Source: Akebia trifoliata | Lineage: Eukaryota; Streptophyta; Magnoliopsida; Ranunculales; Lardizabalaceae | Assembly: GCA_017979445.1 (NCBI GenBank) | Contig: CM030715.1 | Coordinates: forward strand, 30,663,090-30,727,089 | Direction: 5' to 3' | DNA length: 64,000 nucleotides | Part shown: piece after piece, positions 10,527 through 61,860 of the stretch | Layout of the letters: every line of letters begins with the position of its first letter | How positions within the stretch are numbered: the stretch's first letter is position 1 | Notes under the pieces: generated by a model | Seen by the model: the letters and a program-made list of their open reading frames with translations, nothing else | What the model was told of the DNA's origin: nothing | Databases searched by the model: none | Program-made: the position numbers and the translations under genes

Positions 10527-10800
10527 CTATATATATATATATATATATGGTGGTGTTCCACTCACAACCTTATTCTCACAAAAGTTTTACAACACGTTTT
10601 GTCCTATGTGACTTAAAAATTTCGGATTAGGTGATTTTTTGTGAGGATGATCTCTATGATGAGAAAATCATCTTCATCAAAAATCAATCAAATATGAAAG
10701 TTCTAAAACCATTCACAGTGACTTGCAAATTTTCCGATAAACAATTGACGGTTCACAATTCTAAAATCACTTTTGATGGGTTATTGGATAGGTTAATCTG
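10527..10800 (+). mobile_element. partial TA-linked palindromic element
   Basis: A (TA)n tract at 10527-10548 is followed directly by GGTGGTGTTCCACTC, close to the family end signature. The body then follows the family plan: ACACGTTTTGTCCTATGTG, a palindrome around GATC (GGTGATTTTTTGTGAGGATGATC...), and GACGGTTCACAATTC. The second palindrome and the right end are missing, so the copy is truncated. The 60-codon frame here is not a gene. Confidence 0.8.
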
Positions 10801-13649: not shown

Positions 13650-14984
13650 AGCTCCAGAAGCTAGCTTATGAAAGAAGTAAAAATCCAGAGCCTAAAAAGC
13701 TACATCCAACAGAAGCTTATTCGTTACAAAAGCACATAAGCCAAAAATTGATGTTTGTTTGATAGTTTTTTATTACTAGATTATTATAAAATGACCAGAA
13801 TACCCTTACTGTTGATAATACACCCATAATGCACAAAAAATTAGCAGAATACCTTAACAAATATATAATTACAATATATATATATATAATAAATTTATAT
13901 TAAAAAATTATAAAAATAATTATTTTAATAAATTTATAAAATTTATAATTCTATTAAAATTTCGATAGCATCTCCTCTTAAAAATAAATATATGATAAAG
14001 AAAATACCTGCATAATATACAATCAACATCCACATAAAGATGAAAGGTGTTTTGGTAATAAAGTAGTGATGATGAATTGCTTTTGATCTTTGTAGTAAAG
14101 ATGAAGGGTATTTTGATAATTCTGTTTTATTTTTTTAGGTTAAGTTTGATTGAAAATTTGATTAAAGATTAAGGGTATTTTGATAAAGATGAAGGGTATT
14201 TTGATAATTTTATTTTATTTTTTAAGGTTAAGTTTGGTAGAAAATTTAATTAAAGATGAAGGGTATTTTGGAAGATGAAAGGTATTTTGGAAGATGAAGG
14301 GTATTTTGATAATTAGTAAAGATGAAGGGTATTTTTGGTAATTTCTTTTTAGTTTTAAGGTTAAGTTTAGTTGGAAATTTAATTAAAAATGATAGGTATT
14401 TTGATAATTGGTAAAGATGAAGGGTATTTTGATAATTTTATTTTATTTTTTAAGATTAAGTTTGGTTGAAAATGTGATTAAAGATGAAGGGTATTTTGGT
14501 AATTCCATTTTATTTTTTAAGGTTAAGTTTGATTGAAAATTTGATTAAAAATAAAGGGTATTTTGGTAAAGTCGAAGGGTATTTTGATAATTCCTTTTTG
14601 TTGTTTTAAGGTAAAGTTTAGTTGAAAATTTGATTAAAGATGAAGGGTATTTTTGGAAGATGAAGGGTATTTTGGTAAATATGAAGGGTATTTTAGTTAT
14701 CTCATTTCATTTTTTAAGGTTAAGTTTAGTTGAAAATTTGATTAAAGATGAAGGGTATTTTGGTAATTACACTTGAAATGTTTTTATATTTTTGGCTTCC
14801 AACAAAAGCCATTTGAAGAAGCCTCTCTTGGGCAATTTCTTTTAAGAGCTAATTTTGGGTTTCAATTGAAATCTACGGGAGTCAAAAAAGCCCAAACGAA
14901 CATCATTTATCTGACTTTTTTGGCTTAAAAGCTAAAAAAGTAAAAAAAAAACTAGCTACTGAAATTAAAAAGAACAAGGCCTAA
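13650..14984. mobile_element. non-autonomous element carrying a minisatellite, copy 1
   Basis: Flanks of the central repeat match copy 2 at 48988-50282 base for base over long stretches: on the left GAAGCTTATTCGTTACAAAAGCAC and AGCAGAATACCTTAA; on the right AAAAGCCATTTGAA, CCCAAACGAACATCATTTAT and AGAACAAGGCCTAA. Both copies begin and end at similar points, so this is a dispersed unit rather than a locus-specific repeat. No coding capacity. An AT-rich segment with (TA)n lies near 13875-13890. Outer ends are approximate. Confidence 0.65.
14040..14768 (+). repeat. minisatellite, GATGAAGGGTATTTTG units
   Basis: Tandem arrangement of a unit near 67 bp: GATGAAGGGTATTTTGRTAAT, then a T-rich spacer ending in TTTTTTAAGGTTAAG, then TTTGGTTGAAAATTTGATTAAA. 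The first 17-19 bases are also repeated alone two or three times in a row (for example near 14270-14330 and 14640-14690), giving a two-level repeat. Confidence 0.85.
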
Positions 14985-15010: not shown

Positions 15011-15320
15011 ATATACATATTTACTCATATATCTACAAGGTGTTTTGTCCTATGTGGCTAAAAGTTTCGGATCGAGATCATCCTCACAAAAAATCAGCTC
15101 GATCTGAAATTTTTAACCTTGTCAAAAGTGATTTAAAAAAAATGGACGGTTCACGATTCTTCAACTCATAAATATGGGGTTAGAAGTTTTAGAATTAGCT
15201 GATTTTTTGTGGGGATGATCTCCTCATTATAGAGATCATCCTCACCAAAATCAGCTCAATCCGAAACTTTAGCCCACATAGGACAAAACATGTTGTAGAT
15301 ATATGAGTAGATATGTGTGT
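15011..15320. mobile_element. TA-linked family relative with ATCTACAA arms
   Basis: Outer arms ATATACATATTTACTCATATATC and its complement GATATATGAGTAGATATGTGTGT. Inside are ACAAGGTGTTTTGTCCTATGTGG / CCACATAGGACAAAACATGTTGT, then two GATC palindromes separated by ATGGACGGTTCACGATTCTTC. The plan matches units in the 16.5-21.3 kb array, but the ends are different and not set in a long TA tract. Confidence 0.75.
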
Positions 15321-16336: not shown

Positions 16337-16529
16337 ATTTTAAGTGATGGAGGGATGTGAAATTAAATAGACTCTTTTTAAAGGAGGATGGAATAAAAAA
16401 TATATAAATTTATAACTTAAAGGAAAAACATATTTCAATCCTTAGATCGAACGCGATCTAACGACTGAGATCGTTTGTGCGGATATGAGTAGATATATGT
16501 GTACACGGAACGCAACTCTATATATATAT

Positions 16530-16879
16530 GGGTCGGGTTCTGCAACACACATTGCGACACACATATAGACAACGTGTTTGTCTTATATGGGCAAAAATGT
16601 TTGGAATGGGCTGATTTTTTGTGAGGATGATCTCTGTGATGAGGGGATCATCCTGGCAAAAAATCATCCCATTCCAAAACTTGTAACCCCATCAAAATTG
16701 ATTTACAAAAATTGGACGGTCTAGAAGTTTCATAATGAGCTGATTTTTGGCAAGGATGATCTCCTCACCACAGAGATCATCCTTACAAAAAATCAGCCCA
16801 TTCCAAACATTTTTATCCATATAAGACAAAACACGTTGTCTATATGTGTGTTGAAATGGTTGTCGTTTGAACCTGACCC
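16530..16879. mobile_element. TA-linked element, unit A
   Basis: Ends GGGTCGGGTTC and GAACCTGACCC. Outer arms of the ACACACAT-ATAGACAACGTGTTTGTC type. P1 and P2 palindromes are separated by ATTGGACGGTCTAGAAG. 350 bp. Left TA tract 16519-16529, right TA tract 16880-16894. Confidence 0.9.
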
Positions 16880-16894
16880 TATATATATATATAT

Positions 16895-17279
16895 GAGAGC
16901 GGTTCGACAGCCCTAAAGTTTGCCAAGTTTTGTGCCAAACATTTTTTGTAAATCACTTTTGATGGGGTTAGAAATTTTGGAATTGGCTGATTTTTTATGA
17001 GGATAATCTCTACGGTGAAGAGATCATCCTCACAAAAAAATCAGCTCATTTTGAAACTTCTAACCCTAGTTTACAAGTTGAAGAATTGTGAACCGTCCAA
17101 TTTTTGTAAATCACTCTTAATGGGGTTAGAAGTTTTGGAATAGGCTGATTTTTGGTGAGATTATCTCCTCGTCATAGAGATCATCCTCTCAAAAAATCAG
17201 CTCATTCCAAAGTTTATAACCCATATTTTAAAAAATGTTTGACACCAAACTTGGCAAACTTTAGGGCTGCTGAACCGTC

Positions 17280-17281
<2 letters not shown>
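16895..17281. mobile_element. TA-linked element, unit B
   Basis: Ends GAGAGCGGTTCGACAGCCC and GGGCTGCTGAACCGTCCC. Outer arms CTAAAGTTTGCCAAG / CTTGGCAAACTTTAG, a type not seen in the other eleven units. 387 bp. Contains extra GTAAATCACTTTTGATGGGG next to P1. Confidence 0.9.

Positions 17282-17346
<65 letters not shown>
17282..17346. repeat. (TA)n microsatellite, 65 bp
   Basis: The longest TA tract of this array, joining units B and C. It runs as perfect TA repeats to GGGTCAGG at 17347. Confidence 0.97.
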
Positions 17347-17350
<4 letters not shown>

Positions 17351-17726
17351 CAGGTTCAAACGACAATCATTTCAACACACATATAGACAACGTGTTTTGT
17401 CTTATATGGGAAAAAATGTTTGGAATGGGCTGATTTTTTGTGAGGATGATCTCTGTGGTGAGGAGATCATCCTTGCCAAAAATCAGTTCATTATGAAACT
17501 TCTAGACCGTCCAATTTTTGTTGAAAAATTATAGACCGTCCAATTTTTGTAAATCAATTTTGATGGGGTTACAAGTTTTGGAATGGGATGATTTTTTGCC
17601 AGGATGATCCCCTCATCACAGAGATCATCCTCACAAAAAATCAGCCCATTCCAAACATTTTTGCCCATATAAGACAAACACATTGTCTATATGTGTGTCG
17701 CAATGTGTGTTGCAGGAATCCGACCC
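17347..17726. mobile_element. TA-linked element, unit C
   Basis: Ends GGGTCAGGTTCAAACGACA and TGCAGGAATCCGACCC. Outer arms like unit A (ATAGACAACGTGTTTTGTC). The centre has a short local duplication of AGACCGTCCAATTTTTG (about 17504 and 17532). 380 bp. Confidence 0.9.
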
Positions 17727-17765
<39 letters not shown>

Positions 17766-17768
<3 letters not shown>

Positions 17769-18147
17769 CAGCGTTATTACGACCCCCTTTGCGACCCCCT
17801 TTGCGACACACCTTTTTGTCTTATATGGGAAAAAATGTTTGGAATGGGCTGATTTTTTGTGAGGATGATCTCTATGGTGAGGGATCATCCTGGCAAAAAA
17901 TCAGCCCATTCCAAAACTTCTAGACCGTCCGATTTTTGTTGAAAAATTATAGACCGTCCAATTTTTGTGTAAATCAATTTTGATGGGGTTAGAAGTTTTG
18001 GAATGGGATGATTTTTTGCCAGGATGATCCCCTCAGCATAGAGATCATCCTCACAAAAAATCAGCCCATTCCAAACATTTTTTCCCATATAAGACAAAAA
18101 GGTGTGTCGCAAAGGGGGTCGCAAAGGGGGTCGTAATAACGTGACCC
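17766..18147. mobile_element. TA-linked element, unit D
   Basis: Ends GAACAGCGTTATTACGACC and GGTCGTAATAACGTGACCC. Arms carry CCCCTTTGCGACCCCCTTTGCGACACACC and its complement, so the arm tip is itself a short tandem repeat. The centre has the same AGACCGTCC duplication as unit C. 382 bp. Confidence 0.9.
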
Positions 18148-18162
18148 TATATATATATATAT

Positions 18163-18540
18163 GGGTCACGTTCCTGAGACTCATATTGCGACTCACATTG
18201 CGACACACCGTTTTGTCTTATATGGGCAAAAATGTTTGGAATGAGCTGATTTTTTGTGAGGATGATCTCTGTGATGAGGGGATCATTGGCAAAAAATAAT
18301 TCCATTCCAAAACTTCAAGCCCATCAAAATTGATTTACAAAAATTGGACGGTCTATAATTTTTCAACAAAAATTGGACGGTCTAGAAGTTTCATAATGAG
18401 CTGATTTTTGGCAAGGATGATCTCCTCACCATAGAGATCATCCTCACAAAAAATCAGCCCATTCCAAATATTTTTGCCCATATAAGACAAAACGGTGTGT
18501 CGCAATGTGAGTCGCAATATGAGTCTTCGGAACGCTGTTC
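18163..18540. mobile_element. TA-linked element, unit E
   Basis: Ends GGGTCACGTTCCTGAGACTC and GAGTCTTCGGAACGCTGTTC. Arms ATTGCGACTCACATTGCGACACACC. The end GGGTCACGTT is shared with the right end of unit D in opposite sense, across a 15-bp TA tract. 378 bp. Confidence 0.9.
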
Positions 18541-18554
18541 TATATATATAATAT

Positions 18555-18941
18555 GGGGGGTCCCGTTCGGCACCCTTAGTTTTGCCACACACACTTTAAC
18601 AACAACGCGTTTTGTCTTACATGGGTTAGAAGTTTCGGAATGAGCTGATTTTTGGTGAGGATGATCTCTATGGTGAGGAGATCATCCTCACCAAAAATCA
18701 GCTCATTCCAAAACTTCTAACCCCATCAAATTGATTTACAAAAAATGGACGGTCCACGATTTTTTAACGTGTAAACATGGGGCTAAACATTTCGGAATGG
18801 GCTGATTTTTGGTGAGGATGATCTTCTAATCATAGAGATCATCCTCACCAAAAATCAGCCCATTCCAAAACTTCTAACCCATGTAGGACAAAAAACGTTT
18901 GTTAAAGTGTGTGGTAAAACTTAAGGTGCTGAACATTTCCC
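18555..18941. mobile_element. TA-linked element, unit F
   Basis: Ends GGTCCCGTTCGGCACCC and GGTGCTGAACATTTCCC. Arms of the AGTTTTGCCACACACACTTTAACAA type. The two tips differ (GTCCCGTTCGG against GGAAATGTTCAG when both are read inward), which marks orientation. 387 bp. Confidence 0.9.
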
Positions 18942-18963
18942 TATATATATATATATATATATA

Positions 18964-19338
18964 GGGAAATGTTCAGCAACAAACATTTTGACAAACATTT
19001 GGCAAAACATTTTTCAAAACATGGGTTAGAGGTTTTGGAATGGGCTGATTTTTGGTGAGGATGATCTCTACGGTGAGGAGATCATCATCACCAAAAATCA
19101 GCCCATTCCAAAACTTCTAACCCCATCAAAAATGGTTTATAAAAATGGACGGTCCACGATTTTTCAACTTGTAAACTGGGGCTAGAAGTTTTGGAATGGG
19201 CTGATTTTTGGTGAGGATGATCTCCTCACCGTAGAGATCATCCTCACCAAAAATCAGCCCATTCCAAAACCTCTACCCATGTTTTGAAAAATGTTTTGCC
19301 AAAATGTTTGTCAAAATGTTTGTTGCTGAAAGGGACCC
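18964..19338. mobile_element. TA-linked element, unit G
   Basis: Ends GGGAAATGTTCAGCAAC and GTTGCTGAAAGGGACCC, i.e. tip types reversed relative to unit F. Arms AAACATTTTGACAAACATTTGGC. Palindrome P1 spans 19037-19109 and P2 19193-19265; between them lies ATGGACGGTCCACGATTTTTC. 375 bp. Confidence 0.9.
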
Positions 19339-19348
19339 ATATATATAT

Positions 19349-19708
19349 GGGTAGCATTCAATGGCAAACTTTTTAGCAAACTTTTTGGCAAAACATTTTT
19401 CAAAACATGAGTTAGAGGTTTTGAAATGGGCTGATTTTTGGTGAGGATGATCTCTAGGGTGAGGAGATCATCATCACCAAAATCAGCCCATTCCAAAACT
19501 TCTAACCCCATCAAAAACAGTTTACAAAAAATGGACGGTCCACAATTTTTCAACTGTAAACATGGGTTAGAAGTTTTGGAATGGGCTGATTTTTGGTGAG
19601 GATGATCTCCTCACCGTAGAGATCATCCTCACCAAAAATCAGCCCATTCCAAACCTCTAACTCATGTTTTGAAAAATGTTTTGCCAAAAAGTTGGCCATT
19701 GAACGCCC

Positions 19709-19711
<3 letters not shown>
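19349..19711. mobile_element. TA-linked element, unit H
   Basis: Ends GGGTAGCATTCAATGGC and GGCCATTGAACGCCCCCC. Arms AAACTTTTTAGCAAACTTTTTGGC. 363 bp; slightly shortened on the right arm. Confidence 0.9.
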
Positions 19712-19740
<29 letters not shown>

Positions 19741-19742
<2 letters not shown>

Positions 19743-20117
19743 GTGGCGTTCAAGGGCCAACTTTTTAGCAAACTTTTTGGCAAAACATTTTTCAAAACAT
19801 AGGTTAGAGGTTTTGGAATGGGCTGATTTTTGGTGAGGATGATCTCTACGGTGAGTAGATGATCATCACCAAAAATCAGCCCATTCAAAACTTCTAACCC
19901 CATCAAAAACAGTTTATAAAAAATGGACGGTCCACGATTTTTCAACTTGTAAACATGGGTTAGAAGTTTTGGAATGGGCTGATTTTTGGTGAGGATGATC
20001 TCCTCACCGTAGAGATCATCCTCACCAAAAATCAGCCCATTCCAAAACCTCTAACCTATATTTTGAAAAATGTTTTGCCAAAAAGTTTGCTAAAAAGTTG
20101 GCCCTTGAACGCCCCCC
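19741..20117. mobile_element. TA-linked element, unit I
   Basis: Ends GGGTGGCGTTCAAGGGCC and GGCCCTTGAACGCCCCCC; same arm type as unit H (CAACTTTTTAGCAAAC). H and I are adjacent and close in sequence, so one may be a local copy of the other. 377 bp. Confidence 0.9.
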
Positions 20118-20134
20118 TATATATATATATATAT

Positions 20135-20511
20135 GGGTCCCGTTCGGCACCCTAAGTTTTACCACACACTTTAACAAACGCGTTTTGTCTTACATGGGTT
20201 AGAAGTTTCGGAATGAGCTGATTTTTGGTGAGGATGATCTCTATGGTGAGGAGATCATCCTCACCAAAATCAGCTCATTCCAAAACTTCTAACCCCATCA
20301 AAATTGATTTACAAAAATGGACGGTCCACGATTTTTCAACGTGTAAACATGGGGCTAAACATTTCGGAATGGGCTGATTTTTGGGGAGGATGATCTTCTA
20401 AACATAGAGATCATCCTCACCAAAATCAGCTCATTCCAAAACTTCTAACCCATGTAGGACAAACAACGTTTGTTAAAGTGTGTGGTAAAACTTAGGGTGC
20501 TGAACATTTCC
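20135..20511. mobile_element. TA-linked element, unit J
   Basis: Ends GGGTCCCGTTCGGCACCC and GGGTGCTGAACATTTCC. Same arm type and same orientation as unit F, 1.6 kb away, and very similar along its length. 377 bp. Confidence 0.9.
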
Positions 20512-20532
20512 TATATATATATATATATATAT

Positions 20533-20896
20533 GGGTCCCTTTCAGCACAAACATTTTGGCAAAACATTTTTCAAACATGGGTTAGAGGTTTTGGAATGGG
20601 CTGATTTTTGGTGAGGATGATCTCTACAGTGAGGAGATCATCATCACAAAAATCAGCCCATTCCAAAACTTCTAGCCCCATGTTTACAAGTTGAAAAATC
20701 GTGGACCGTCCATTTTTTGTAAACCATTTTTGATGGGTTAGAAGTTTTAGAATGGGCTGATTTTTGGTGATGATGATCTCCTCACCGTAGAGATCTTCCT
20801 CACCAAAAATCAGCCCATTCCAAAGCCTCTAACCCATATTTTGAAAAATGTTTTTGCCAAAATGTTTGTCAAAATGTTTGTTGCTGAACATTTCCC
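20533..20896. mobile_element. TA-linked element, unit K
   Basis: Ends GGGTCCCTTTCAGCAC and GTTGCTGAACATTTCCC. Arm type of unit G (AAACATTTTGGCAAAAC). The core is inverted relative to G: the centre reads AAATCGTGGACCGTCC. 364 bp. Confidence 0.9.
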
Positions 20897-20910
20897 TATA
20901 TATATATATA

Positions 20911-21288
20911 GGGAAATGTTCAGCACCCTAAGTTTTACCACACACTTTAACAAACGTTTTTTGTCCTACATGGGTTAGAAGTTTTGGAATGAGCTGATTT
21001 TTGGTGAGGATGATCTCTATGTTTAGAAGATCATCCTCCCCAAAAATCAGCCATTCCGAAATGTTTAGTCCCATGTTTACACGTTGAAAAATCGTGACCG
21101 TCCATTTTTTGTAAATCAATTTGATGGGGTTAGAAGTTTTGGAATGAGCTGATTTTTGGTGAGGATGATCTCCTCACCATAGAGATCACCCTCACCAAAA
21201 ATCAGCTCATTCCGAAACTTCTAACCCATGTAAGACAAAACACGTTTGTTAAAGTGTGTGGTAAAACTAAGGGTGGCGAACGGGACCC
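20911..21288. mobile_element. TA-linked element, unit L
   Basis: Ends GGGAAATGTTCAGCACCC and GGGTGGCGAACGGGACCC. An inverted relative of units F and J (AAGTTTTACCACACACTTTAAC arms). Followed by a (TA)n tract to 21307, where the array stops at ACCAAGAAGGCC. 378 bp. Confidence 0.9.
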
Positions 21289-21307
21289 ATATATATATAT
21301 ATATATA

Positions 21308-32458: not shown

Positions 32459-33830
32459 TCACTTCCACAGATCAATTTGGCAACTCGAGGTGGATGTCGA
32501 GGCATATTCCGATCCCATTTCATGCTTGTTGGATTGTCGTGCAACGATGTTGATATGGTCCGATATATGAAAGGCATTGGCTGCATTAGAGCAAATTGGT
32601 TCTTTGGAAACATCCTCTTGACTCAGTTGAGAGGCAACAAACTTATCGAGAACTCGCCAATCAGTCACTTGATCCACTGCTTGCTCATTGTTGTTGTTGT
32701 TGCTGCTGTAGAGAGAGTTCATGTTGTGTTGTTGGTTTTGTTGCATCTGTTCTTCTTGAGTGAGTGATGAGGATTGAAGAGTACTTCCCTGATTAACATC
32801 GAGACCATACGCCACAACAGAGTTGCAGCTAACGCTGGTTGCTGAATGTGGAAGTTTCGGGCTCTCTAATTGAGGGAGTTGAAGGAAAGACTCATGAGGC
32901 ATCTGGTATTGCAATTCCAACTCTTGCTTGCAAGAATAAGGGTGGTAGTATACCATGTCAGGTTGAGTAATTCTCTTTGGCGAGTCTAGATCCGGCATGA
33001 ATGAGACTTGTTCGTCATACCAACAAGGCGACTCATGCTCACTTGCTTTCCTCATTGCTGTTATTCTCTTCTTGAATACCCTACACACAACCCAACCCTC
33101 TTCCTGGTGCAATTACATAAACGTTACTTTCATTAGTGATGTAAATAGAAATTTGTATGTATGATGAAAATATAACAAATTGAACACATGAAAATGATTT
33201 GAATGAAAAGCAACTAATAACATTTGGGGCCTCAACATACTTATGGATTAACAAAATAAAATTCAAACTGAAAGCACTTACCTGAGGAGTTCCATTTTCA
33301 TTTGTCTCAAGCCGATATTCATGCATGATCCAATCTGATTTCTGTCCATTTGGGGCTCTTCCTTTGTAAAATACTAAGGTTTTTCTCATGCCAACCAAGT
33401 TATGCTTAGAGTAAATAGCCTTGTCTCGTCCCGTCGCTTTCCAAAACCCTGCCGTTGTGGCTCTATTAGTGCGAGTCCCGGTTGGATACTTCTTATCTTT
33501 GTGGCTGAAAAAATACCATTCATTCTGCTCTTCTGTTCCTATACTACATTTATCTGTTCATATAACAAAATGAACAATATTTATAAATAAATAAAAAAGT
33601 ATGTTATATTGTGTAAATATAAGTATCGACCATCATTCTAATTATTTTTGTTTTTGTTAGTTAGTTCTACCTTGAAGATCCCAGGGCTCAATTTTGTAGA
33701 GATCAACATCTTTAATGACATCTAGGTCAATCCTTCTTGAAGCAACTTTCTTTCTGAGGTAGTAATCGACTAGCTCTTCATCTGTTGGATGGAACCGAAA
33801 ACCTGGTGGAACATGTGAAAAGGTATCCAT
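32459..33830 (-). CDS. NAC-domain transcription factor, VND (vascular-related NAC) type
   Basis: Three coding exons on the minus strand: 33830-33671, 33553-33282 and 33103-32459. Junctions are CTTCAAG|GTAGAA...GAACAG|ATAAATG and CCTCAG|GTAAGTG...CACCAG|GAAGAGG, both GT-AG and in phase. The product is 358 residues. All five NAC subdomains are present: [22 protein letters not shown] (7-28, A), [19 protein letters not shown] (34-52, B), [20 protein letters not shown] with [13 protein letters not shown] (C), [20 protein letters not shown] with [10 protein letters not shown] (D), and [13 protein letters not shown] at the start of exon 3 (E). The C-terminal region holds the family motif [12 protein letters not shown] and ends CQIDLWK. 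Start and exon layout match the Arabidopsis VND4/5/6 branch. Such proteins bind DNA in the nucleus as dimers and switch on secondary-wall and cell-death genes in xylem vessels. The frame opens 33 bases upstream of the chosen ATG but has no earlier ATG. No frame damage seen. Confidence 0.93.
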
Positions 33831-48987: not shown

Positions 48988-50282
48988 CAGAAGTCGACAT
49001 TTGGAAGAAGTAAAAGTTTAAAGTCTAAAAACCAATATCTAGTAGAAGTTTATTCGTTACAGAAGCACATGAGCCAGAAATTGGTGTTCGTTTGACAATT
49101 TTTTATTACTGGATTCTGATAAAATGATCAGAATACCCTTTATGTTGATAATGCATCTAGAATACACACAAAAATAAGCAGAATACCTTAATAAATATAT
49201 AATTACACTATATATATAATATAATAATAATAATAATAATAATAATAAATTTGTATTAAAAAATTATAAAAATAATTATTTTCAATTTAAATAAGTTTAT
49301 AAATTTTATAATTCTATTGAAATTTCGGCATCTTCTCTTAAAAATGAACATATGATAAAGAAAATACCTGCATAATACACAATCCCACATCTACATAATG
49401 ATAAAGGGTATTCTAATAATAAAGTAGTGATGATGTATGACTTTTGATCTTGGTAGTAAAGATAAAGGGTATTTTGATAATTTTTTTATTTTTTAAGGTT
49501 AAATTTGGTTGAAAATTTGATTAAAGATGAAGGATATTTTGATAATTTTCTTTTATTTTTTAAGGTTAAGTTTGATTGAAATTTTGATTAAAGATAAAGG
49601 TATTTTGGTAATTTCTTTATATTTTTTAATGTTAAGTTTGGTTGAAATTTTGATTAAAGATGAAGGGTATTTTGGTAATTTTTTATTTTTTAAGGTTAAG
49701 TTTGGTTGGAAATTTGATTAAAGATGAAGGGTATTTTGATAATTGAAAAAAATAAAGGGTATTTTGGTTATTCCATTTTATTTTTTAAGGTTAAGTTTGA
49801 TTGAAAATTTGATTAAAGATAAATATTATTTTGATAAAGATGAAAGGTATTTTGATAAAGATGAATGATATTTTGGTAGTTTCTTTTTATTTTTTAAGAT
49901 TAAGTTTAGTTGAAAATTTGATTAAAGATAAAGGGTATTTTGATAAAAATGAATGATATTTTGAAAAATAAAAGGTATTTTGGTAAAGATAAAGGGTATT
50001 TTAGTAATCTCATTTCATTTTTTAAAGTTAAGTTTGGTTGAAAATTTGATTAAAGATGAAGGGTATTTTGGTAACTACACTTGAACTGTTTTATGTTTTT
50101 GGCTTTCCACAAAAGCCATTTGAAAAAACCCCTCTTGGACGACTTCTTTTATGAATTACTTTTGGGCTTCAATTGAAATCCACAAGAGCCCAAAAAGTCC
50201 AAACGAACATCATTTATTTGACTTTTTTAGCTTAAAAACAAAAAAAAAATTGGTTCTTGAAACTTAAAAGAACAGGGCCTAA
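48988..50282. mobile_element. non-autonomous element carrying a minisatellite, copy 2
   Basis: Second copy of the 13650-14984 element, same orientation, with matching left (GAAGTTTATTCGTTACAGAAG, AGCAGAATACCTTAATAAAT) and right flanks (AAAAGCCATTTGAAAA, CCAAACGAACATCATTTATT, AAGAACAGGGCCTAA). It has a (TAA)n tract at about 49217-49248 where copy 1 has (TA)n. Confidence 0.65.
49402..50076 (+). repeat. minisatellite, GATGAAGGGTATTTTG units, copy 2
   Basis: Same 67-bp unit and same 17-19-bp sub-unit as at 14040-14768, but with a different order and number of sub-units, so the arrays have evolved separately since the copies parted. Plus frames such as 49527-49721 are by-products of the repeat. 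Confidence 0.85.
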
Positions 50283-53271: not shown

Positions 53272-53615
53272 CATATGTAAAAACAATGGTTTTTCAAAAT
53301 ATGGGTTAGAGGTTTTAGATTGAGCTGATTTTTTGCGAGGATGATCACTATGATGAGAAGATCATCCTCACAAAAAATCAGCTCAATCTGAAACTGCTAA
53401 ATCCATCAAAAGTGATTTACAAATTAGTGGCAAAAAATCGACGGTTCACATTCTAAATCACTTTTAATGGGGTTAGATGTTTCATATTTGACCGATTTTT
53501 TTTTTTTGGATGATCTTCCCATCATAGAGATCATCCTCACAAAAAAATCAACTCAACCCCAAACTTCTAACCCATATTTTGAAAATTTATTAATGTTACA
53601 TTGTTTTTACATATG
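53272..53615. mobile_element. single TA-linked family relative with CATATGTAAAAACAATG ends
   Basis: Perfect 17-base ends CATATGTAAAAACAATG / CATTGTTTTTACATATG. Inside are AAAATATGGGTTAGAGG, P1 around GATC, a centre with TCGACGGTTCACATTC, P2 with a T run at about 53498-53508, and AACCCATATTTTG. The plan matches the array units but the tips do not carry GGG-N4-GTTC and no long TA tract adjoins. Confidence 0.8.
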
Positions 53616-59490: not shown

Positions 59491-59492
<2 letters not shown>

Positions 59493-59845
59493 CTACCATT
59501 TACCCAACATGTTTAGTCCTACATGGGTTAGAAGTTTTGGAACGGGCTGATTTTTTTGTGAGGATGATCTCTACTGTTAGAAGATCTTCCTCACCAAAAA
59601 TCAGCTCATTCTGAAATTTCTAACCCCATGTTTACAAATTGAAAAATCATGGACCATCCATTTTTTGTAAACCATTTTTGATGGGGTTAGAAGTTTTGGA
59701 ATGGGCTGATTTTTGGTGAGAATGATCTCCTCACCATAGAGATCATTCTCACCAAAAATCAGCCTATTCCAAAACTTCTAACCCATGTAGGACAAAACAC
59801 GTTTGTTAAAATGTAGGGTAAAGCTTAGGGTGTTGAACATTTCCC
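59491..59845. mobile_element. TA-linked element, unit M
   Basis: Begins CCCTACCATTTACCCAACATG and ends GGTGTTGAACATTTCCC. Arms of the unit F/J type with GTTTAGTCCTACATGGG on the left and CCATGTAGGACAAAACACG on the right. The left tip lacks the GTTC motif (about 20 bases shorter), so it is slightly truncated there. Two palindromes; centre AAATCATGGACCATCC. Confidence 0.85.
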
Positions 59846-59853
59846 TATATATA

Positions 59854-60128
59854 CTATGATTAGAAGATCATCCTCACCAAAAATCAGCCCATTCCGAAAT
59901 TTTTAGCCCCATGTTTACAAGTTGAAAAATCGTGGACCGTCCATTTTTTGTAAACCATTTTTGATGGGGTTAGAAGTTTTGGAATGAGCTGATTTTTGGT
60001 GAGGATGATTTCCTCACCATAGAGATCATCATAACCAAAAATCAGCCTATTCCAAAACTTCTAACCCACGTAGGACAAAACACGTTTGTTAAAGTGTAGG
60101 GTAAAGCTTAGGGTGGGGAACGGGACCC
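59854..60128. mobile_element. TA-linked element, unit N, left-truncated
   Basis: Starts inside palindrome P1 (CTATGATTAGAAGATCATCC) directly after a TATATATA tract and ends GGGTGGGGAACGGGACCC. The left arm and half of P1 are missing, yet a TA tract still abuts the broken end. Confidence 0.85.
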
Positions 60129-60142
60129 ATATATATATATAT

Positions 60143-60351
60143 GGGTCCCGTTCAGCAACAAACATTTTGACAAACATTTTAGCAAAACATTTTTCAAAAC
60201 ATGGGTTAGAGGTTTTGGAATGGGCTGATTTTTTGTGATGATGATCTCCTCACCGTAGAGATCATCCTCATCAAAAATCAGTTCACTCCAAAACCTCTAA
60301 CCCATGTTTTAAAAAATGTTTTGCCAAAATGTGTATTGCTAAACATTTCCC
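60143..60351. mobile_element. TA-linked element, unit O, internally deleted
   Basis: Ends GGGTCCCGTTCAGCAAC and GTATTGCTAAACATTTCCC, arms as unit G. Only one GATC palindrome remains and the GGACGGTCC centre is gone. 209 bp, so the deletion joined the left half of P1 to the right half of P2. Confidence 0.85.
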
Positions 60352-60364
60352 ATATATGCATATA

Positions 60365-60704
60365 GGGTAGTGTTGAGAGGACCTAAAGGGAGCCAAACAT
60401 TTTTCAATGTATGGGTTAAAAGGTTTGGAACATGCTAATTTTTGTGAGGGTGATCTCTATGATGAGGAGATCTGAAATTTCAAACCCCATCAAAAGTGAT
60501 TTATTAAAAATAAACGGTTCATGGTTGTTTTACTTGTAAATTAGGGTTAGAAGTTTCAGAACGAGCTGATTTCTGGTGACGATGATATCTTCTCCATAGA
60601 GATCATCGTCACAAAAAATCACCCCATTTTGAAACGTGTAACCCCTATTTAAAAAAATGTTTAGCATAATATTTGGCTCTCTTTAGGGCCTCCGAACACT
60701 TCCC
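60365..60704. mobile_element. TA-linked element, unit P, divergent
   Basis: Ends GGGTAGTGTTGAGAGGACC and GGCCTCCGAACACTTCCC. Arms TAAAGGGAGCCAAACATTTTTC. P1 is partly deleted around 60440-60475; P2 is intact; the centre reads AAACGGTTCATGG. More diverged than units A to O. Confidence 0.8.
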
Positions 60705-60718
60705 ATATATATATATGT

Positions 60719-61860
60719 GGGGGCAGTTCGTGGGACGTCTTCGAAACCAGTTGAAAAACTGATGAAAGTCAACCGTTGGATTTTTAGCTTTCAACGGTTA
60801 GATCTCGTTTGAAAGCAGAACATGCGGTCAGCTGGAAACACAGTTTCTTTTTAACTTTTTGAATTATTTTCAAAGACCTCCCTCCATCATTTAGTTTATT
60901 AAAATTAAAAATCAGGGACGTCATATCCATTGTCTTCATTTTCATTCTCAGGGTATGATTCATTTCCCCCATCAACAAGAGATTGTAGTAGCTGCAATCA
61001 CAACCAGGTATCAGTAAAAAAATTTAAATGGATATATGAGAAAATGTAATTGCCAAGCAAACAGACCTTCTCATAAAGTGAAGGAGAATGTGCCTCCCTA
61101 AGTCTTTCACAAACTTGGATTTGTTCCTCCCATATTTCTGTAAATTCTGGATTGATAGTGCTATGAAGTCTTGCAACGGGAAACATTGTAGCTAAAGAGA
61201 CGCGCCTACTAGAACTTATCCTTTGCTTTTGGGGAACATTTACTGTTTAAGACGAAAAAAATATATGTTCAATCCATCAAAAAATTGAAATTTTAAAGGG
61301 GAATTAGTAAGATTGTCTAACCTTTTTTAAATGGTTTTACTTTCAAGTTCCCGGGTTCATGGGGATTCAAAGGCTTCCTTCATTGCTATTGCTATTATCG
61401 GGGCAATGGATGGTAGGTGGTCCCCACGATTTTTACTGAGATGATGAGGTAATGACTCAGACGAGAACGACCCTTCTCCCTCTGCATCCGCCCATGTTCC
61501 TGTTGTCTCCATCCTTTCACAAGAAACAACATTTAATTCTTAATTATATATATGATAAAGAGATGGTTCTCGTGAGAGAGAAGGGTTTGAATCTGTGATT
61601 TTTGTAGAGAAGAGACTTGAGAGAGAAGATAGAGTCCGTATGTTAGTTTTGAGAAAGAAGAGAGATGGTTTTAATTTTAATAAACTAAATGATGGAGGGA
61701 GGTTTTTGAAAATAATTCAAAAAGTTTAAAAGAAACTGTGTTTCCAGCTGGCTGCATGTTCTGCTTTCAAATGAGATCTAACCGTTAAAAGCCAAAAATC
61801 CAACGGTTGACTTTCATCAGTTTTTCAACTGGTTTCGAAGACGTCCCACGAACCGCCCCC
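60719..61860. mobile_element. gene-capturing element with 192-bp terminal inverted repeats
   Basis: Ends GGGGGCAGTTCGTGGGACG and CGTCCCACGAACCGCCCCC. The inverted repeats are 60719-60910 and 61669-61860, nearly identical over about 192 bp (shared GAAACCAGTTGAAAAACTG, CAACGGTTAGATCTC, CCTCCATCATTTAGTTTATT), so insertion is recent. It sits between TA tracts (60705-60716 and 61861-61875). The interior is a captured host gene fragment. Long inverted repeats plus captured exons resemble Pack-MULEs; inside a TA tract the target duplication length cannot be read, so the superfamily is open. Confidence 0.9.
60905..61512 (-). pseudogene. captured host-gene fragment, three exons, unidentified protein
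   Basis: Minus strand. Exon a: about 61512-61322, starting METTGTWADAEGEG. Exon b: 61242-61067. Exon c: 60991-60905, ending GYDVPDF and stop. Junctions AAAAAAG|GTTAGA...TTAAACAG|TAAATG and GAGAAG|GTCTGT...GATTGCAG|CTACTAC are GT-AG and join in phase, giving NLKVKPFKK-VNVPQKQR, then RLHSTINPEFTEIWEEQIQV, then LYEK-LLQSLVDGGNESY. A frameshift in exon a (near 61368, CTTTG) separates the METTG start from the later frame. The stop codon falls at the inner edge of the left inverted repeat. I do not recognise the family; the C-terminus is acidic. Whether it is transcribed is unknown. Confidence 0.7.

Follow-up and report, generated by a model that had tools for sequence, protein, structure and literature searches.

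We examined a 64,000-nucleotide stretch of the Akebia trifoliata genome (GenBank assembly GCA_017979445.1, contig CM030715.1, positions 30,663,090 to 30,727,089 of the forward strand), referred to here as the window. Between positions 16530 and 21288 of the window, 12 inverted-repeat units of 350-387 bp (u1 to u12) lie end to end with TA tracts of 10-65 bp between them. The array resembles chains of small transposable elements published from other plants, and the question considered here is how it was built.

The array

All 11 internal joints are pure TA, save small slips: the u3/u4 and u5/u6 joints each have an AA step, which in u5/u6 is followed by an extra G. All 12 units are uninterrupted by other units; nesting was assessed in the window array, because the length filter of the wider sample described below removes nested units. 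The units have a common core and differing arms, and pairwise identities place them in three groups, A, B (95-97% identical), and C, with u2 as the sole member of group D. Groups A, B, and C each contain units in both orientations. The outer bases differ between the two ends of many units (for example, GGGAAATG versus GGGTCCCG), and therefore the units have a direction. The array reads as follows, with strand where one is assigned and with the TA phase of each unit as defined in a later section.

16519..16529: outer left TA tract
16530..16879, plus strand: u1, 350 bp, group A, ends GGGTCGGG / GGGTCAGG, opposite TA phase
16895..17281, plus strand: u2, 387 bp, group D, ends GAGAGCGG / GGGACGG, same TA phase, unlike every other unit of the array
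17347..17726, minus strand: u3, 380 bp, group A, end pair of u1 reversed, opposite TA phase
17766..18147: u4, 382 bp, group A, ends GAACAGCG / GGGTCACG, opposite TA phase
18163..18540: u5, 378 bp, group A, ends GGGTCACG / GAACAGCG, opposite TA phase
18555..18941, plus strand: u6, 387 bp, group B, ends GGGGGGTCCCG / GGGAAATG, opposite TA phase, judged by eye (G at left edge)
18964..19338, minus strand: u7, 375 bp, group C, ends GGGAAATG / GGGTCCCT, opposite TA phase
19349..19711: u8, 363 bp, group C, ends GGGTAGCA / GGGGGGCG, opposite TA phase
19741..20117: u9, 377 bp, group C, ends GGGTGGCG / GGGGGGCG, one long hairpin, opposite TA phase
20135..20511, plus strand: u10, 377 bp, group B, ends GGGTCCCG / GGAAATG, opposite TA phase
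20533..20896, plus strand: u11, 364 bp, group C, ends GGGTCCCT / GGGAAATG, opposite TA phase
20911..21288, minus strand: u12, 378 bp, group B, ends GGGAAATG / GGGTCCCG, opposite TA phase
21289..21307: outer right TA tract

Every unit is an imperfect full-length inverted repeat, with an identity to its own reverse complement of 0.75-0.90. Inside this repeat, 11 of the 12 units have two hairpin cores, which together comprise four similar segments whose direction alternates; u5 is the exception, with one of these segments unmatched. The single DNA strand of u9 has a computed fold of -186.8 kcal/mol, versus a mean of -41.6 for shuffled sequences (z -37.8). A previous reading of this DNA from its letters alone (the sequence-only reading) had described twelve elements of 350-387 bp with only TA between them and with outer arms of several types, and the joints and the four groups bear out both points. 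It had also described a shared palindromic core. The core is indeed shared, but it is not one palindrome.

Copies elsewhere in the genome

The assembly searched comprised 652.5 Mb in 878 contigs. A DNA search with u1-u2 returned 6777 first-look candidates, and scoring covered 40 of them. An exact 15-base AAAT-type end matched the genome 6901 times and its reversed control once; thus the matches are not due to chance. The six bases directly before this end were alternating TA in 5693 of the 6901 matches (82%), a figure that covers one side, one end type, and one set of subfamilies. TA also directly preceded all 39 exact ends in the window and 20 further loci, which had been picked as clusters. 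The sequence-only reading had proposed tabulating flanks genome-wide and had stated that copies mostly lacking TA repeats would count against it; the tabulation gave the other outcome. The 5693 TA-flanked ends divide into 2542 preceded by TATATA and 3151 preceded by ATATAT. In the first sample the AAAT end had seemed to favor TA phase rather than AT phase (28:15, with TCCC ends at 8:26), but this genome-wide split is the reverse, and the preference was rejected.

Among the window and 19 loci, the longest chain has 19 units (L012, C16:3322198-3329869), one of which is recorded as short, probably because it is split by a brief TA run within it. The window chain ranks second. The suggestion that a 12-member chain would be an extreme case does not hold, given this longer chain in the same genome and the arrays already published (PMC5907723 and PMC8449440).

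Sampled joints were at least 10 bp long in 80 of 81 cases, the remaining one being a 7-bp joint beside a damaged unit, and 69 of the 81 were pure TA. The detection of joints misses tracts of fewer than 6 bases; one 3-bp joint was seen at L040. Joints that are nearly all 10 bp or longer fit a 9-bp duplication that leaves TA on both sides of a unit.

Relatedness and orientation of neighboring units

Relatedness was evaluated in 116 units drawn from the window and 19 loci (20 sources); each measured 300-420 bp and had at least 85% of its length covered by likeness to window units. One locus (L011) was left out of this set, as well as of the joint set and the first phase set, as a copy of another (L010). 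The nearest relative was at another locus for 98 of the 116 units and was the adjacent unit for 6. The sequence-only reading had proposed checking whether neighbors are closest relatives. In the window they are not: all 12 units have their nearest relative elsewhere, and the likeness between window neighbors (0.801) does not differ significantly from that in random order (0.777, p 0.11). The units of the array were inserted separately.

Orientation was evaluated over 871 joints genome-wide, defined as two exact 9-base ends separated by 8-17 bases. These patterns allow spacers other than TA; most among the matches listed were alternating TA. The facing ends were AAAT and AAAT at 288 joints, AAAT and TCCC at 429, and TCCC and TCCC at 154, with 0, 1, and 0 matches for the reversed-pattern controls. 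The expectation for randomly oriented units is 290, 425, and 156 (chi-square 0.07, p 0.79). This is a clean quantitative test, and the orientation of neighbors fits the random expectation. The counts in the fetched samples were 5:9:2 and 2:9:2. Head-to-tail duplication predicts mixed joints only, whereas all three kinds were found at the random ratio, and thus duplication is not the main process.

The two loci set apart as copies, L010 and L011 (C11:17.65 and 18.26 Mb), represent a recent duplication about 0.6 Mb apart, with the same array in both. The two shared units that were compared are identical in aligned columns.

TA phase as a probable record of duplication parity

An insertion into alternating TA that duplicates an odd number of bases leaves one end of the unit following T and the other end, read outward on its own strand, following A. 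After an even duplication, the preceding base is the same for the two ends. This phase relation is left unchanged when the tract slips by whole TA units. We applied the test to intact units, defined as having GGG at each end and 8 bp or more of TA on either side, and counted others apart. The first sample was picked by likeness to u1-u2, and the second, from contig C1, by one exact end.

Intact units whose two ends were in opposite phase numbered 50 of 55 in the first sample (p 2e-10) and 27 of 30 from contig C1. For both samples together the count was 77/85, rising to 47/50 where the flanks were at least 14 bp. In the window, whose units overlap the first sample, 11 of the 12 units had opposite phase, u2 being excepted. 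As a control, the outer ends of two-unit blocks were opposite in only 19/43 and 9/18 cases (28/61 in total; Fisher p 5e-9 versus single units). Facing ends over one joint were in opposite phase in 16 of 40 cases, and the outer ends of four-unit and five-unit blocks in 13 of 21 and 8 of 13. The opposite phase of single units indicates an odd duplication in TA tracts, such as the 9-bp duplication that Mutator-like elements make. Among the eight same-phase exceptions, three have mismatched end types, as expected of recombinants.

Three same-phase units (L051:684-1049, L053:633-985, and L055:1464-1844) have two AAAT ends or ends of mixed groups and are possibly recombination products.

These results suggest that TA-tract flanks are a readable fossil of insertion, and that what they record here is probably the ordinary Mutator-like process, cut-and-paste of randomly oriented single units with a 9-bp duplication, without a special recombination pathway. 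The test offers the parity of a duplication inside microsatellites, where the authors of the MuTAnT study in Medicago truncatula reported that for most copies duplications could not be precisely determined (PMC4486113), and it tells transposition of single units from that of blocks. If this interpretation is correct, phase reading could be extended to published TA-targeting families whose duplications are hard to determine. Flank phase as a readout of duplication parity inside microsatellites was not found in the literature searched, including PMC5907723 and PMC4486113 by word search; the phase test itself is what may be new.

Target duplications outside TA tracts

Among the first 100 listed genome matches on contig C1, 20 places without a preceding TATATA were fetched. 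Six of these 20 loci had an AAAT end without a six-base TA run, and at five of the six an exact 9-bp direct repeat surrounds the unit, as listed below.

L029: 9-bp target duplication ATATTTTTA
L035: 9-bp target duplication CTCTAATAT
L037: 9-bp target duplication TATCTTATA
L044: 9-bp target duplication ATATTTATA
L046: 9-bp target duplication AGTAAAGAA

At the sixth locus (L040), where two units lie three bases apart, no clear duplication was found. Mutator-like elements duplicate 8-11 bp, usually 9 (PMC5907723). Both the 9-bp repeats seen directly and the odd parity in TA agree with this.

Proposed mechanism and alternatives

The explanation that we favor, with a probability of roughly 0.9, is that the array is a chain of nonautonomous Mutator-like miniature inverted-repeat transposable elements (MITEs), inserted singly and in random orientation into TA tracts by cut-and-paste with a 9-bp duplication. 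A single unit would land in an alternating TA tract, in any orientation, and duplicate nine bases of its target. Those nine bases would themselves be TA repeats, leaving at least 9 bases of TA on each side of the new unit, and because the duplicated bases are TA, each insertion would make the target for the next element. The tracts could later lengthen or shorten by two-base steps. It is suggested, then, that chain building in TA tracts needs no new mechanism. We infer that a Mutator-like transposase acts in trans, with a preference for TA-rich targets. The sequence-only reading had likewise favored repeated insertion over tandem duplication of one unit, and the location of the nearest relatives, the random orientation, the TA flanks, and the odd duplication give that view strong support.

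Several observations weigh against this explanation. An adjacent inverted pair at L021:5070-5839, with AAAT ends facing and an identity of 1.00 to rounding, is a very recent local pair, and thus local events occur too. Three-unit blocks had opposite outer phase in 7 of 27 cases (p 0.02), which no model considered here predicts; we take this result, one of several block sizes tested, as chance. The phase signal was weaker in units with at least one non-GGG end (38 of 54 opposite), and the 8 same-phase units among the 85 intact ones represent minority histories, namely, even duplications, indels, or recombination. Both phase samples were selected in the ways described above. No transposase gene was linked to the unit ends, the Pfam check having covered two peptides of a 1144-bp element described below, and no empty allele was seen in this assembly.

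The local pair bears on the idea that the array arose from one unit, or a few, by tandem duplication or unequal crossing-over. Across the sample, likeness is slightly greater between adjacent units (0.774) than between units at different loci (0.759), the six units whose nearest relative is adjacent include the L021 pair, and the units with mismatched ends suggest some recombination. However, a tandem satellite array would have closest-relative neighbors in head-to-tail order, and the relatedness and orientation counts revealed neither. Duplication is already refuted as the main process, and as the origin of the array it is highly improbable. Joint movement of two or more units as composite blocks at first seemed likely, since seven of the loci fetched contain a u1-u2 pair whose facing ends are the same (L010 and L011 belong to a single duplicated region). 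Those loci, however, had been picked by a u1-u2 query. Moreover, the partner distances are uncorrelated (r 0.04), the two partners differ in divergence, and another facing order has a similar frequency, the AACCTGACCC end facing GGGAGCGGTT in 13 cases genome-wide and the AACCCGACCC end in 10. Two-unit blocks also have outer ends at chance phase, as noted above. On these observations we rejected u1-u2 composite transposition, and as a general account of the array joint movement of blocks retains only a very slight chance. We conclude that single units move.

The remaining alternatives concern how a single unit enters TA. A special microsatellite route, such as the homologous recombination of circular intermediates with TA filler suggested for the SaTar elements (PMC5907723), would account for TA targeting without a sequence-specific transposase, and it was proposed since the flanks of many SaTars did not fit a duplication (PMC5907723). 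Filler of free length, however, predicts no parity unless it is always odd, whereas 77 of 85 intact units show the odd phase that a 9-bp duplication predicts, and copies outside TA carry 9 bp. We therefore consider such a route quite unlikely. Tc1/mariner-type (Stowaway-like) MITEs, which duplicate the TA dinucleotide, would share the TA target. Their 2-bp duplication predicts the same phase at both ends, the opposite of what was found in those 77 units, and at five loci the duplication is 9 bp; both results refute this possibility, whose probability is close to negligible. Single insertion with a 9-bp duplication thus remains our preferred explanation.

A longer element in the window shares some features with the units. 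This 1144-bp element, at 60717-61860, ends in inverted repeats of about 192 bp that are about 96% identical; it has TA tracts on both sides and is chained to a cluster at 59491-60704. Its ends are of the same GGG...GTTC style as those of the units. Neither of two interior peptides had a Pfam match. Plant Mutator-like elements (MULEs) include one class that usually has long inverted repeats.

Comparison with known systems

Judged by published descriptions, the array is of the SaTar, Ac-mMITE, and MuTAnT kind, here in another plant. SaTars, described from guayule, rice, sorghum, and citrus, are small inverted-repeat elements flanked by microsatellites, often (TA)n, and chained without nesting; 11 of 15 guayule families include some copies with a 10-bp duplication, and the elements were classed as nonautonomous MULEs (PMC5907723). 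A sorghum cluster has 8 members (PMC5907723). The Akebia units match this description in being small, inverted-repeat, TA-flanked, and chained un-nested. Most copies have a microsatellite flank (the 5693 of 6901 exact ends, one side and one end type), the arrays are non-nested multimers of distinct elements (0 of 12 interrupted, four groups), and some copies carry a duplication in the 9-10 bp range outside the microsatellite (9 bp, 5 of 6 loci). Unlike SaTars as published, the insertions into TA tracts bear the signature of an odd duplication, and the chains reach 12 and 19 units.

The Ac-mMITEs of pineapple are flanked by TA on one or both sides in about 74% of cases; 46.1% of full-length copies lie in 4024 clusters ascribed to independent insertions, and copies outside microsatellites have 9/10-bp duplications (PMC8449440). 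By description the Akebia units share the TA flanks, the clustering by independent insertion, and the 9-bp duplication outside TA, but they measure 350-387 bp, compared with 510-570 and 210-270 bp for Ac-mMITEs. A close match in anatomy and duplication length, as far as the text of the paper allows comparison, is with MuTAnT, a four-segment foldback element with variable-length terminal G runs, TA targets, a 9-nucleotide duplication outside TA, and a mudrA-like autonomous partner (PMC4486113). MuTAnT is shorter (218 copies, 90% of them 200-300 bp), and the word "cluster" is absent from the main text of the paper (PMC4486113). Micron of rice (Akagi et al. 2001), equated with rSaTar2, is about 380 bp, targets (TA)n, and is microsatellite flanked in 492 of 510 copies (PMC5907723); Micron is reported mainly from Poaceae and Rosaceae (PMC12550479). 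The likeness to Micron as a small (TA)n-targeting element is by description only, and the insertion signature found here is Mutator-like.

Thus, with guayule, rice, sorghum, citrus, and pineapple already published, what is new here is another plant with a known kind of array. A literature search on MITEs in Lardizabalaceae listed nothing for this plant family. As one genome contains at least 6901 exact ends, chains of this kind are relevant to the growth of these genomes.

Other features of the window

Solitary relatives of the units, probably degenerate, are found at 10585-10762, 15071-15320, and 53279-53586. A similar tandem repeat, with the motif AAAGATGAAGGGTATTTTGATAATT, forms one array at 14093-14761 and a separate one at 49457-50074. 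A NAC-domain gene, similar to NAC domain-containing protein 7, is encoded on the minus strand at 32459-33557. Among the best 120 of 1410 relatives, a 217-residue piece of its protein was at most 80% identical to any other, the best match being from Magnolia sinica, followed by Tetracentron.

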